Of a stretch of 64,000 nucleotides of DNA, positions 88 to 50,492 are shown one piece after another (position 1 is the first letter of the stretch; the number at the start of each line of letters is the position of its first letter). The DNA is from Saxibacter everestensis (GTDB taxonomy: Bacteria > Actinomycetota > Actinomycetes > Actinomycetales > Brevibacteriaceae). The position numbers were made by a program, and so were the translations under genes. The stretch covers positions 1,517,856 to 1,581,855 of the forward strand of contig NZ_CP090958.1 of NCBI RefSeq assembly GCF_025787225.1, given 5' to 3'. Under the pieces are notes generated by a model. It did not search any database. It had not been told where the DNA came from and worked only from the letters and a program-made list of their open reading frames with translations.

Positions 88-1121
88 AGTTCCGACGCTC
101 TTGCAACGTGACTGCGCAATCCGGGCCATGTTGTACCTACCGGCAGCATGACCCGGATGGCGTCTGGTAGATGGTCGATCTGCGCAGCGGTGGCCTCCCC
201 GATGGATTCCCCGTCAGCCTGAAAAGCCATTGGACCCTCGAAGTCGAGCGTGACTGAGTGCGCTTCGCGGTAGGAGAGCGTCGTGTTGTGGCTCGAATCC
301 CTTTGCCGCCGGCGTTGGTTCCGGCCGGCAGGAAGGTTTTTCCGGACGAGCCAGGCCATGAATCGTACGAGGTTGAGCGGCGCTAGTGAACGCATCGTGA
401 GCACATCGAAGCTACCCCGGGCAGGATGAGCATTTGGCAGGATGCTGATCCCGGTCGGCAGCCGACCGCAGCTTCCGGTCATCACCGTATGGGCCTGTTG
501 CCAGCCCTGATCCTGGCCGTCGAGTCGGATCCGGACCCGGCTGGAGGCGCGTGAACGCAGGCTGGTGATGATTGCGGGAATGTAGGCGGGCCAGCGCAGG
601 GCGTTCTTGTGCTTGGCGCTCGTGTTGCGAACCATGTGTTCATCCAGGCCGAATCCGGTGATCACGAAGAACCGCAGGCTTTCCAGGCCGCCGTCAGCTC
701 TGGTGAGCTCGATTCGGCCGGCACCGACCGAAAAGGGTTGACCGGCAAGGGCACGACGCAGCGCGCGGGTGTAACCGCGGGACCGCAATCCCAGATTGGT
801 GGCGAACAGGTTCGTGGCGCCGACCGGAATGATCAGGAGTGGGACCTGCGTGTCGACCAGTTCCGAGGCCACCGCCCTTACGGTTCCATCGCCTCCCGCC
901 GCAATGATCAGGTCGACCTCCTGGGCGAGCGCCTTATGCGCAGCACCGGCTCCGGCATCGTGGCGTTCGGTCTCCAGCCATACTGACGGCCGCCAGTCTC
1001 GATCTCGCTCAACAGCAGCGATGGCCCGACGCAGACGCGGCTGGTTCACCTTGGTGGGGTTGTAGATGACCGCTGTGCGGAGGCGACGAGAGCCAGTTGG
1101 TTCAGGGCGGGAGTCCGGCAT
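42..1121 (-). CDS. Diacylglycerol/lipid kinase family protein
   Basis: 359 aa. The N-terminal half carries the DAGK catalytic fold: the opening strand with a YNPTK motif (about residues 20-24) and the nucleotide-binding GGDGT motif near residue 76, followed by PVGATNLFA, the usual place of the G-T-x-N motif. The C-terminal half has the lid-domain pattern ending in a FQADGE segment, typical of YegS/DgkB proteins. Members phosphorylate diacylglycerol or related lipids at the inner membrane face; the substrate here cannot be read. The ATG lacks a strong ribosome binding site. The gene stands alone and converges on the membrane-protein fragment at the left edge. Confidence 0.8.
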   Translation of the reverse strand: MPDSRPEPTGSRRLRTAVIYNPTKVNQPRLRRAIAAVERDRDWRPSVWLETERHDAGAGAAHKALAQEVDLIIAAGGDGTVRAVASELVDTQVPLLIIPVGATNLFATNLGLRSRGYTRALRRALAGQPFSVGAGRIELTRADGGLESLRFFVITGFGLDEHMVRNTSAKHKNALRWPAYIPAIITSLRSRASSRVRIRLDGQDQGWQQAHTVMTGSCGRLPTGISILPNAHPARGSFDVLTMRSLAPLNLVRFMAWLVRKNLPAGRNQRRRQRDSSHNTTLSYREAHSVTLDFEGPMAFQADGESIGEATAAQIDHLPDAIRVMLPVGTTWPGLRSHVARASELQRSCLPDTADRRKP

Positions 1122-47872: not shown

Positions 47873-49036
47873 ATGCGCAGAGGGGTGTTGCCGCTGCTGC
47901 TCTGCGCGCTTGGTGTACTGGCGATCATTACGGGCATCTTGCCGCTGGAACGTGCCGAGTCGCTCTTCGCGCGCATCGGCCCTATCCTGGGCTTCGTCGT
48001 CGCGATTACCATCGTTGCCGAGCTTGCCGCCAAGGCCCGACTGTTCGCTGTCGTAGGGGACTACCTCGCCCAGTTCGGTCGTTCACGAGTTTGGCTGCTC
48101 TGGCTTCTCATCGTCGGTCTGGCAGTTGTGAGCACCGTCTTCCTCTCCCTCGACACCACGGCCGTCCTGCTTACACCCGTCGTGATCGTGTTGGCGCAGC
48201 GCGCCAGTATTGCGCCAATGCCGTTCGCACTGACTACCATCTGGCTGGCGAACACGGCATCGCTACTGCTACCGGTATCCAACCTGACCAATCTGTTATC
48301 CGGACAAAAGATGGGCGCCACTCCCCTGCAATTCGCCGGCCTGCTCTGGGCCCCGGCCGTCGTTGGGCTCGTCATTCCCGTGGCAATGCTCTGGTTCCTG
48401 TTCCGGAAGAGTTTCGCCGAGCGATTCGAACCCTCGATCCCCGTGCCGGTCGGTGATCGTCCGCTGTTGTTGATCGCAGCCGCCACCGTCGTCAGTTTGC
48501 TTGTCGCGCTCATCTCCGGCATTGCGGTGGTGTGGCCGGCCAGCATAGCCGCCGTGATCCTGCTGGTGGCTTTTTGGTTCCGGCGGCGGGAGGAACTTCA
48601 TTTCTCACTGCTTCCGGCGGTTCCGTTGTTGATCACGGTGGGACTTTTCCTGTTGATTGAAACCCTGCATGCGCAAGGACTTACCGGAGTGCTCCACCGC
48701 GCGGTTCCGGCTGGCGACGGCTTGCCGGCACTGCTTCAGCTGTCCGCGGCCGGAGTGTTGGCCGCCAACGTGTTGAACAACCTGCCGGCCTACCTGGCGC
48801 TGGAGCCGGTGGCCGATTCCCCGCTCCGGCTCGGAGCGCTTCTCGTGGGGGTAAACCTTGGTCCCTTGGTAACGCCGTGGGCGTCACTGGCGACTCTGCT
48901 TTGGTATGAGCGAGTCCGTTCGCTAGGGATGACGGTCCGCTGGGGCCGGTTCGCGCTGGCCGGAGTCGTCCTCGTCGCCTGCGCCGTGCCCACTGCGGTC
49001 TTCATGCTGTGGCTTTCCGGAGGCGCGCCGAGGTAG
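47873..49036 (+). CDS. SLC13/ArsB-like anion permease
   Basis: 387 aa with GGGGGAAAAGG before the ATG. About eleven hydrophobic segments, with LDTTAVLLTPVVIVLAQR and WLANTASLLLPVSNLTNLL (the SNxTN-like hairpin) in the first half and AANVLNNLPAYLALEP in the second, matching the two inverted repeats of the ion-transporter superfamily (SLC13, ArsB, NhaD). Anion identity is unclear. The iron box upstream could also affect it, which would be unusual. Confidence 0.82.
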   Translation: MRRGVLPLLLCALGVLAIITGILPLERAESLFARIGPILGFVVAITIVAELAAKARLFAVVGDYLAQFGRSRVWLLWLLIVGLAVVSTVFLSLDTTAVLLTPVVIVLAQRASIAPMPFALTTIWLANTASLLLPVSNLTNLLSGQKMGATPLQFAGLLWAPAVVGLVIPVAMLWFLFRKSFAERFEPSIPVPVGDRPLLLIAAATVVSLLVALISGIAVVWPASIAAVILLVAFWFRRREELHFSLLPAVPLLITVGLFLLIETLHAQGLTGVLHRAVPAGDGLPALLQLSAAGVLAANVLNNLPAYLALEPVADSPLRLGALLVGVNLGPLVTPWASLATLLWYERVRSLGMTVRWGRFALAGVVLVACAVPTAVFMLWLSGGAPR

Positions 49037-49049
49037 CAGCCGAAGGCGG

Positions 49050-49078
49050 TCATCGAGGATCAGGCGCCGATGAAGCAG
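49050..49078. repeat. Left copy of a 29-bp direct repeat (copy of comB 3' end)
   Basis: Bases TCATCGAGGATCA then GGCGCCGATGAAGCAG are matched 27/29 at 49736-49764. On the minus strand it would encode CFIGA and a stop, a duplicate of the last codons of the comB gene (CFVGA stop). It marks the left edge of a 686-base segment holding one hypothetical gene. Confidence 0.8.
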
Positions 49079-49124
49079 GTGATATTACTAGTCTGTCAAC
49101 GACTTACTAGGTCCCAATCATTGA

Positions 49125-49715
49125 ATGCGAATTGAATCCGACATGTTTGATTTCACCGTCCGGGCCAATCTGCCCTGGAACTTTGATGCTTATGCCCGAA
49201 TACTAATTCCGGGGACGGTCGGAGACACTCCGGTCGCATGGTCGACGATACGGAAGTCTCTCGGCCTGCCACCGGGTGACCGGCTCATGCAGTGGGAAGA
49301 ATTCGCGAACGGCGACCTATACAATTCGGTCCACGTGGAAGGCCTTGGGACTGTGGACCCTCCATTTGGTGGGGAGATTACCGAACCCATGCTTGACGCC
49401 GTATTGCACGCGTTCAACGCGGATCGCGCCTCATTGAAGTTCGCGGCGTGGGACAGTTACAGCCTGCCGCAACTTGGTCCAAAGCTGTTCACAATATTCG
49501 ATAAGGACTTCTATCCGACGGCGCCGCCGGAAGACTATCCGGCTCCGGTCTTTGTTTATGCTTCAGACCGCAGTTGGGCTGCGCACGCTAATTCGGATGC
49601 CGGAGACGTCGTCGTCGGGGGGCCCGAAACGGGCATAGAAAGACTAGTTAGCGACGGTTCTGTTGAAGCCTACCGAGTTACACCGAATGACCGGTTGGAC
49701 TGGCGCGAAAAGTAG
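49125..49715 (+). CDS. Orphan protein on a repeat-bracketed segment
   Basis: 196 aa; an ATG six codons later (49143) is equally possible since neither has a ribosome site. The protein opens with FDFTVRANLPWNFDAYARILIPG and contains MQWEEFANGDLYNSVHVEGLGTVDPPFGGEI and AWDSYSLPQLGPKLFTIFDKDFYP; no family recognised. Aromatic-rich, acidic and soluble, it has the general look of small immunity or SMI1-type proteins, which is only an impression. GC is clearly below the flanks, and the gene sits wholly between the two 29-bp repeats, suggesting acquisition. Confidence 0.65.
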   Translation: MRIESDMFDFTVRANLPWNFDAYARILIPGTVGDTPVAWSTIRKSLGLPPGDRLMQWEEFANGDLYNSVHVEGLGTVDPPFGGEITEPMLDAVLHAFNADRASLKFAAWDSYSLPQLGPKLFTIFDKDFYPTAPPEDYPAPVFVYASDRSWAAHANSDAGDVVVGGPETGIERLVSDGSVEAYRVTPNDRLDWREK

Positions 49716-49735
49716 GCCGCGCAGTAGACGAGCGC

Positions 49736-49764
49736 TCATCGAGGATCAAGCGCCGACGAAGCAG
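49736..49764. repeat. Right copy of the 29-bp direct repeat (end of comB)
   Basis: The native copy: it contains the comB stop codon and last codons and runs 10 bases past the stop. Differs from the left copy at two positions. Confidence 0.8.
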
Positions 49765-50492
49765 CCGCGTCCCAGCAGCGGCACAGATGTGCTTTGATCA
49801 AGCTCTCCGGCGATCCGAACGTCATCTGCGAAGCCCATCTCGCTGAGCTCTTGCCCGGTGCGACACCGTTCGAGCGCGCCGGCCATGTAAGAGCGTTCGT
49901 TGTTGAATGCACGGATCGATTCCATTGCTGCCGGCGCGATTACCGGCCAGCCTGTGTCAGCCAAGGTTGACAGCACGGCGCCAGCGCCCCAGAAGTCCTC
50001 GGCTGCGGATCGACGCGTCCCATCGCGTCGCAGTTCGCCTGCTGCAATCACCGTGACCCGGTGGGACGAAGGGCGATAGCGCGCGCAGATCCAGCGCCCC
50101 ACCGCAGCGGAGTTTCGCAACGAGGCCGCCACGACAGTGTCCACGTTTCCCGCCAGGTGATGGCAAATGGCGGAACCGTTCGGTGACGGCAAGACGAGCC
50201 TGTCGACGTTTCCAGCATCGCGCACGCTCGCCGGAGACAGACTGATGTCATCGCGCGTCGCAGTCGATCGCGCTACCGCAAGCTTCGCGTTGACCGATGC
50301 CGCATATTGCTCCGCCGAGCCATCCAGCCACCGATAGGGGTAGACCGCCATCCCGGCGTCGATCGCCACCGATAGCGTTGTTGTGAACGACAGCACGTCG
50401 ACCACAACGGCAATATCGGTGTCCGCGGCCAATCGTTCGGCGCCTTCCAGTCCCCAAGCCAGGTGAACATCGTACGGCGCCTGAATCGTCAC
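49746..50492 (-). CDS. comB: 2-phosphosulfolactate phosphatase family (ComB)
   Basis: 248 aa. VVVDVLSFTTTLSVAIDAGMAVYPY is the Mg-binding DVLSFTT motif near residue 32; LVLPSPNGSAICHHLAG and VTVIAAGELRRDGTRRSAAEDFWGAGAVLSTL are the other family blocks. In methanogens the enzyme serves coenzyme M synthesis; in actinobacteria without ComA/ComC partners, as here, the real substrate is unknown. Its 3' end is duplicated at 49050. Confidence 0.88.
   Translation of the reverse strand: MTIQAPYDVHLAWGLEGAERLAADTDIAVVVDVLSFTTTLSVAIDAGMAVYPYRWLDGSAEQYAASVNAKLAVARSTATRDDISLSPASVRDAGNVDRLVLPSPNGSAICHHLAGNVDTVVAASLRNSAAVGRWICARYRPSSHRVTVIAAGELRRDGTRRSAAEDFWGAGAVLSTLADTGWPVIAPAAMESIRAFNNERSYMAGALERCRTGQELSEMGFADDVRIAGELDQSTSVPLLGRGCFVGA

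Follow-up and report, generated by a model that had tools for sequence, protein, structure and literature searches.

The locus lies within a stretch of 64,000 nucleotides of the Saxibacter everestensis genome (hereafter the window, to which coordinates refer unless stated otherwise) and comprises, from left to right, a permease gene, 9 nt, a left repeat, a 46-nt leader, a gene encoding a protein of 196 amino acids, 16 nt, and a right repeat that reaches into comB. The permease gene (47873-49036, plus strand) belongs to the CitMHS/ArsB family (PF03600, 6.5e-27) and is the convergent neighbour, on the far side of the insert, of the comB-like gene (49746-50492, minus strand), a member of the 2-phosphosulfolactate phosphatase family (PF04029, 3.2e-21) whose 3' end would have been the target of the insertion. 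Between the repeats, the insert (49079-49731, 653 bp) holds a single intact ORF (49125-49715, plus strand; hereafter the 49125 gene) and no integrase gene. The ORF is preceded by an AT-rich leader (49079-49124, plus strand) that runs from the left repeat to the start codon, with an in-frame TGA directly before the ATG. The GC content of the insert is 0.556 versus 0.627 for the window, and only 2% of the window's 653-bp stretches are equally low. If the insert and one repeat are removed, the permease and comB stops come to lie 23 nt apart, tail to tail, as they presumably did before the insertion.

The two direct repeats (49046-49078 and 49732-49764) are 33 nt long each and identical at 30 of the 33 positions. 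The left one, GCGGTCATCGAGGATCAGGCGCCGATGAAGCAG, reads on the minus strand as ...CFIGA-stop plus 14 nt and would represent a displaced or duplicated comB tail, whereas the right one, GCGCTCATCGAGGATCAAGCGCCGACGAAGCAG, is the present 3' end of comB, reading ...CFVGA-stop plus 14 nt past the stop; the gene's 3' end occupies the last 19 nt of this copy. The coding end and the stop are thus preserved in both copies (CFVGA-stop and CFIGA-stop), as is expected of elements that reside at gene 3' ends, and one of the three mismatches lies beyond the stop, another is synonymous (GCC/GCT) and the third exchanges Ile and Val. That direct repeats of the target sequence bracket the insert is also what characterizes insertions with long target duplication. 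An initial annotation of this region had described a low-GC segment with one gene between direct repeats of 27/29 identity, one of them the true comB end and the other its copy. This description agrees with our results, including a start-to-start spacing of exactly 686, except for the size of the repeats, which has to be extended to 33 nt with 30 matches.

A search of the whole 4,048,523-base genome with a 28-nt core of the repeat, allowing up to three mismatches, rendered two copies only, which rules out a dispersed repeat family, and the 33-nt repeat is absent from the 346 other sampled genomes of the order. A chance repeat could also be ruled out, since within ca. 5 kb the best match of the comB tail is 30, versus at most 17-23 for random 33-mers of the window (150 trials); when the left copy is left out, the best nearby match of the comB tail falls to 20. 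Homology between the copies is cut off sharply at either edge of the 33 nt. Strong inverted arms were not found in the repeat, which contains just TCATCG/CGATGA, and this in the left copy only. The presence of a plus-strand stop codon just before each copy (at 9 and 16 nt) could be taken to mean that the repeat serves as a functional RNA element or as a terminator of the convergent genes, unrelated to mobility. However, neither a stable fold (z-scores of 0.34 to -0.55) nor a terminator-like site was found, and an element of this kind would be confined to two copies in the genome, so that a terminator or RNA structure was rejected and a function of this type is considered highly improbable.

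The relatives available for comparison were members of the order, no second genome of the genus being among those searched. The comB relatives found in the order are at most ca. 54% identical, and the permease is absent from the 18 neighbourhoods of comB relatives analysed in the order, among which the permease/comB arrangement was not found. Tandem comB genes are known, one genome of the order having two copies ca. 13 kb apart, and the left repeat could accordingly be all that remains of a second comB, the body of which would have been deleted upon arrival of the 49125 gene. Such a history would nevertheless require more steps, and it would have to leave 33 nt only, with sharp edges on both sides, for which reason it appears quite improbable. 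On plasmid pRB98 of Rhodococcus oxybenzonivorans, a frameshifted comB fragment is joined to a truncated integrase located on the opposite strand; the junction is placed mid-gene, so that it is not a 3'-end site, and this case was discarded as support for integration at comB.

A protein search in 396 genomes of the order rendered weak C-terminal matches to the product of the 49125 gene, and alignments with these proteins extend along its length, with the common motifs F[DE]AYAR[IV]L, QW and D[RH]SW. With a profile built from nine members of this family, 26 of the 397 genomes searched in the phylum gave matches; these genomes are dispersed over many families, and in the own genome the 49125 gene was the sole match. 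The gene, which had initially been considered to resemble no family that could be named, is therefore a short member of a recognisable, though unnamed, actinobacterial family of patchy distribution (motif order F[DE]AYAR[IV]...QW...D[RH]SW). A tblastn search with one of the relatives located members on plasmids of Curtobacterium, Clavibacter, Arthrobacter, Mycobacterium, Dietzia, Hoyosella and Rhodococcus, and of the seven regions viewed, four had a recombinase or integrase gene within a few kb of the family member. The protein has no match in Pfam, NCBIfam, PHROGs, PADLOC or PDB, and none of the phage records and viral contigs tested carries a relative. A phage or anti-phage defence gene was rejected on these grounds, namely the lack of PHROGs or PADLOC profile matches and of a viral contig with a relative. 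Genome-contig scans carried out with the 49125 gene and with comB rendered no matches, and AlphaFold run on the single sequence gave a mean pLDDT of 33.5 and no usable model. The 49125 gene is probably an accessory, horizontally acquired gene, and the likeliest guess as to its role is that of a plasmid or island cargo, selfish or defence-like.

The flanks of the other family loci were compared with those of the 49125 gene within 600 bp. The best flanking 24-mer match ranged from 16 to 20 at the other loci (n=32), versus 22 at 49125, and comparable direct repeats flank none of the 32. The repeats are therefore a trait of this insertion event and not of the gene, and a recurrent mobile cassette built on the 49125 gene was rejected. 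In this respect the minimal cassette proposed in the initial annotation has to be abandoned as a property of the gene, since its relatives do occur at 32 loci devoid of such repeats, an outcome that the annotation had itself named as speaking against its proposal.

Fragments of integrase, transfer or phage genes were not detected in the 653-bp insert, whose length is taken up by a single intact ORF, so that an integrase gene within the element, as carried by integrative elements of gene 3' ends, is missing here. In the genome, three Phage_integrase genes score above the family cut-off (at 0.56, 0.96 and 1.09 Mb) and one further fragment lies below it (at 2.14 Mb). With the repeat locus at 1.567 Mb, all of these matches are at least 0.47 Mb distant, and the lack of an integrase inside the segment, which had been pointed out initially, is thereby confirmed. 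One explanation for this lack is decay, by which a larger island, once inserted at the 3' end of comB, would have lost everything, its integrase included, but the 49125 gene. The att-like anatomy would be alike in that case, and the family is found on plasmids near recombinase genes, but a decaying island should hardly leave 653 bp with no integrase, transfer or phage fragment and with its one ORF intact, and we regard this origin as improbable.

Elements that integrate into gene 3' ends reseal the gene with the incoming end and displace the old one. The reading that we favour, and to which we give about an even chance, is that the comB 3' end received an accessory gene by horizontal transfer in this manner, the tail of comB being replaced by an incoming, near-identical one. 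The permease and comB genes would first have stood tail to tail with a single copy of the 33 nt, and the incoming DNA would have brought a near-identical comB tail together with the 49125 gene. Upon insertion, comB would have been resealed by the new tail, now the right copy, and the old tail would have been pushed across the insert to its place beside the permease gene, becoming the left copy. Because the insert carries no recombinase, recombination may have been performed by an enzyme encoded elsewhere, by one that was later lost, or through a pathway of general recombination. The direction of the insertion, which of the copies is the old one, and the participation of a site-specific enzyme are what we infer in this scheme.

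Two features favour replacement of the tail, namely that each copy codes for a proper comB end and that the boundary coincides with the end of the gene. Coding differences of a conservative kind would be expected if each copy had once served as the comB end, of which the three differences available may give a faint indication. Acquisition of the gene, in turn, is supported by the uniqueness of the repeats to this locus, the low GC content of the insert and the patchy, plasmid-borne distribution of the family. The array of displaced ychF ends in this genome, in which no Phage_integrase gene was found, and the comB cassette between ychF tails of another genome (both described below) also speak for an insertion of this kind. 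Against the replacement of the tail stand the lack of an integrase inside or near the insert, the lack of strong inverted arms in the repeat, the fact that no empty site was seen among the relatives searched, whose comB loci lie in other surroundings, and the fact that the other family members have no flanking repeats, so that the mark of a recurrent cassette is missing. Insertion at the comB 3' end without an integrase of its own, as proposed in the initial annotation, is in keeping with the anatomy of the locus, but not in the form of a cassette defined by its gene.

A scan for spaced repeats that covered 2.4 Mb of the genome, followed by inspection, rendered a number of other small units between copies of gene or tRNA ends. 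One of them, 752 bp long and situated downstream of a PhoX gene, encodes a CopG/PemK toxin-antitoxin system and lies between repeats of 36 nt (34/36; genome 49476-50263). A 1.8-kb unit encoding a DUF4062-like protein (sub-threshold match) is found at a tRNA-like 3' end, a 1.6-kb unit with a DUF6036 nucleotidyltransferase and an HTH protein at a tRNA-like repeat, and a 540-nt unit is bracketed by repeats of 125 nt. At the left edge of the window, 37-nt direct repeats (36/37; window 136-172 and genome 1517614-1517650) with a spacing of 377 delimit a 377-nt unit of GC content 0.512, close to the 3' end of a gene on the minus strand. Repeats of 71 nt (64/71; genome 315504-317456) bracket 1.9 kb, and the stop codon of a gene for an amino-acid permease falls within one of them, a gene-end duplication comparable to that of comB. 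Loci of other genomes around comB or family members (482 kb) likewise hold several spaced repeats, and therefore no excess is claimed for this genome. The comB locus is a real footprint but not an extraordinary one, similar inserts being present elsewhere in the genome.

The main rival to tail replacement is an insertion with target duplication that involved no specific recombinase, in which illegitimate or homology-facilitated joining, for instance after transformation, would have duplicated the 33 nt and the copies would have diverged later. The repeats at other units of this genome, the 752-bp CopG/PemK unit included, are unrelated to one another and range from 36 to 125 nt, so that no common site is needed, and a pattern of this type is described as established in Helicobacter pylori (PMC1643837, citing Nobusato et al. 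2000). On the other hand, the codon-conservative differences and the placement exactly on the gene 3' end, stop included, suit an att-like replacement somewhat better, and we consider target duplication by general recombination possible, though on the unlikely side.

Displaced gene ends are also found at ychF (genome 2269787-2270872, minus strand), downstream of which displaced ychF 3' ends occur over ca. 20 kb (genome 2250746-2270872). In this genome they bracket small accessory units, and a search of the own genome detected no Phage_integrase gene in the 2250746-2270872 array. Of the 347 genomes of the order, 272 contain the 29-nt ychF end, which encodes VVEFRFNV-stop, frequently in 2-9 copies located close together on the same strand; a control pattern gave zero in the genomes listed. 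In one other genome ychF tails bracket comB, and in another they bracket an ORF pair that, judged by eye, resembles a toxin-antitoxin module. A limited literature search found nothing on ychF-end arrays in these bacteria. Together with the bracketed units of the own genome, the arrays indicate that in this group it is nothing unusual for small, integrase-less units to build up at gene ends. It could tentatively be proposed that these bacteria possess several gene-end attachment sites, the comB 3' end among them, for integrase-less cassettes of one to few genes that an enzyme encoded elsewhere would move, with the ychF 3' end, whose displaced tails flank toxin-antitoxin-like and comB cassettes, as the main site and the comB locus of the window as a single-copy side case, but we hold this to be rather unlikely.

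The comB locus represents a clean footprint of the way in which single accessory genes get into a genome with no recombinase of their own. Taken alone, it contributes a single site and a further representative of an uncharacterised protein family, but it led to the broader pattern of ychF-end arrays, where the responsible enzyme could be sought. We know of no report of comB as an integration site.

Insertion with long target duplication has been described for restriction-modification genes (Nobusato et al. 2000, cited in PMC1643837 and PMC3031569). The comB locus is similar in that a small accessory unit without a recombinase lies between direct repeats copied from the target, and it differs in that its cargo is not a restriction-modification system, its 33-nt repeat falls exactly on the 3' end of a gene, and the event is read here from one strain. 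The pdif modules of Acinetobacter are units of one or few genes that lie between short sites and depend on an enzyme encoded elsewhere for their movement (PMC12907356). A unit of this size bracketed by short sites is what the comB locus shares with them, an enzyme acting in trans being only putative here, whereas its site is the end of a coding gene, whose likeness to dif is not established, and its repeats are imperfect direct repeats of which the genome holds one pair. Tyrosine-integrase islands, finally, integrate site-specifically into the 3' ends of genes or tRNAs. In contrast to these islands, the insert at comB has no integrase and consists of one gene only, but it has in common with them a gene end that would have been restored by the incoming copy, an old end that would have been displaced, and a low GC content.
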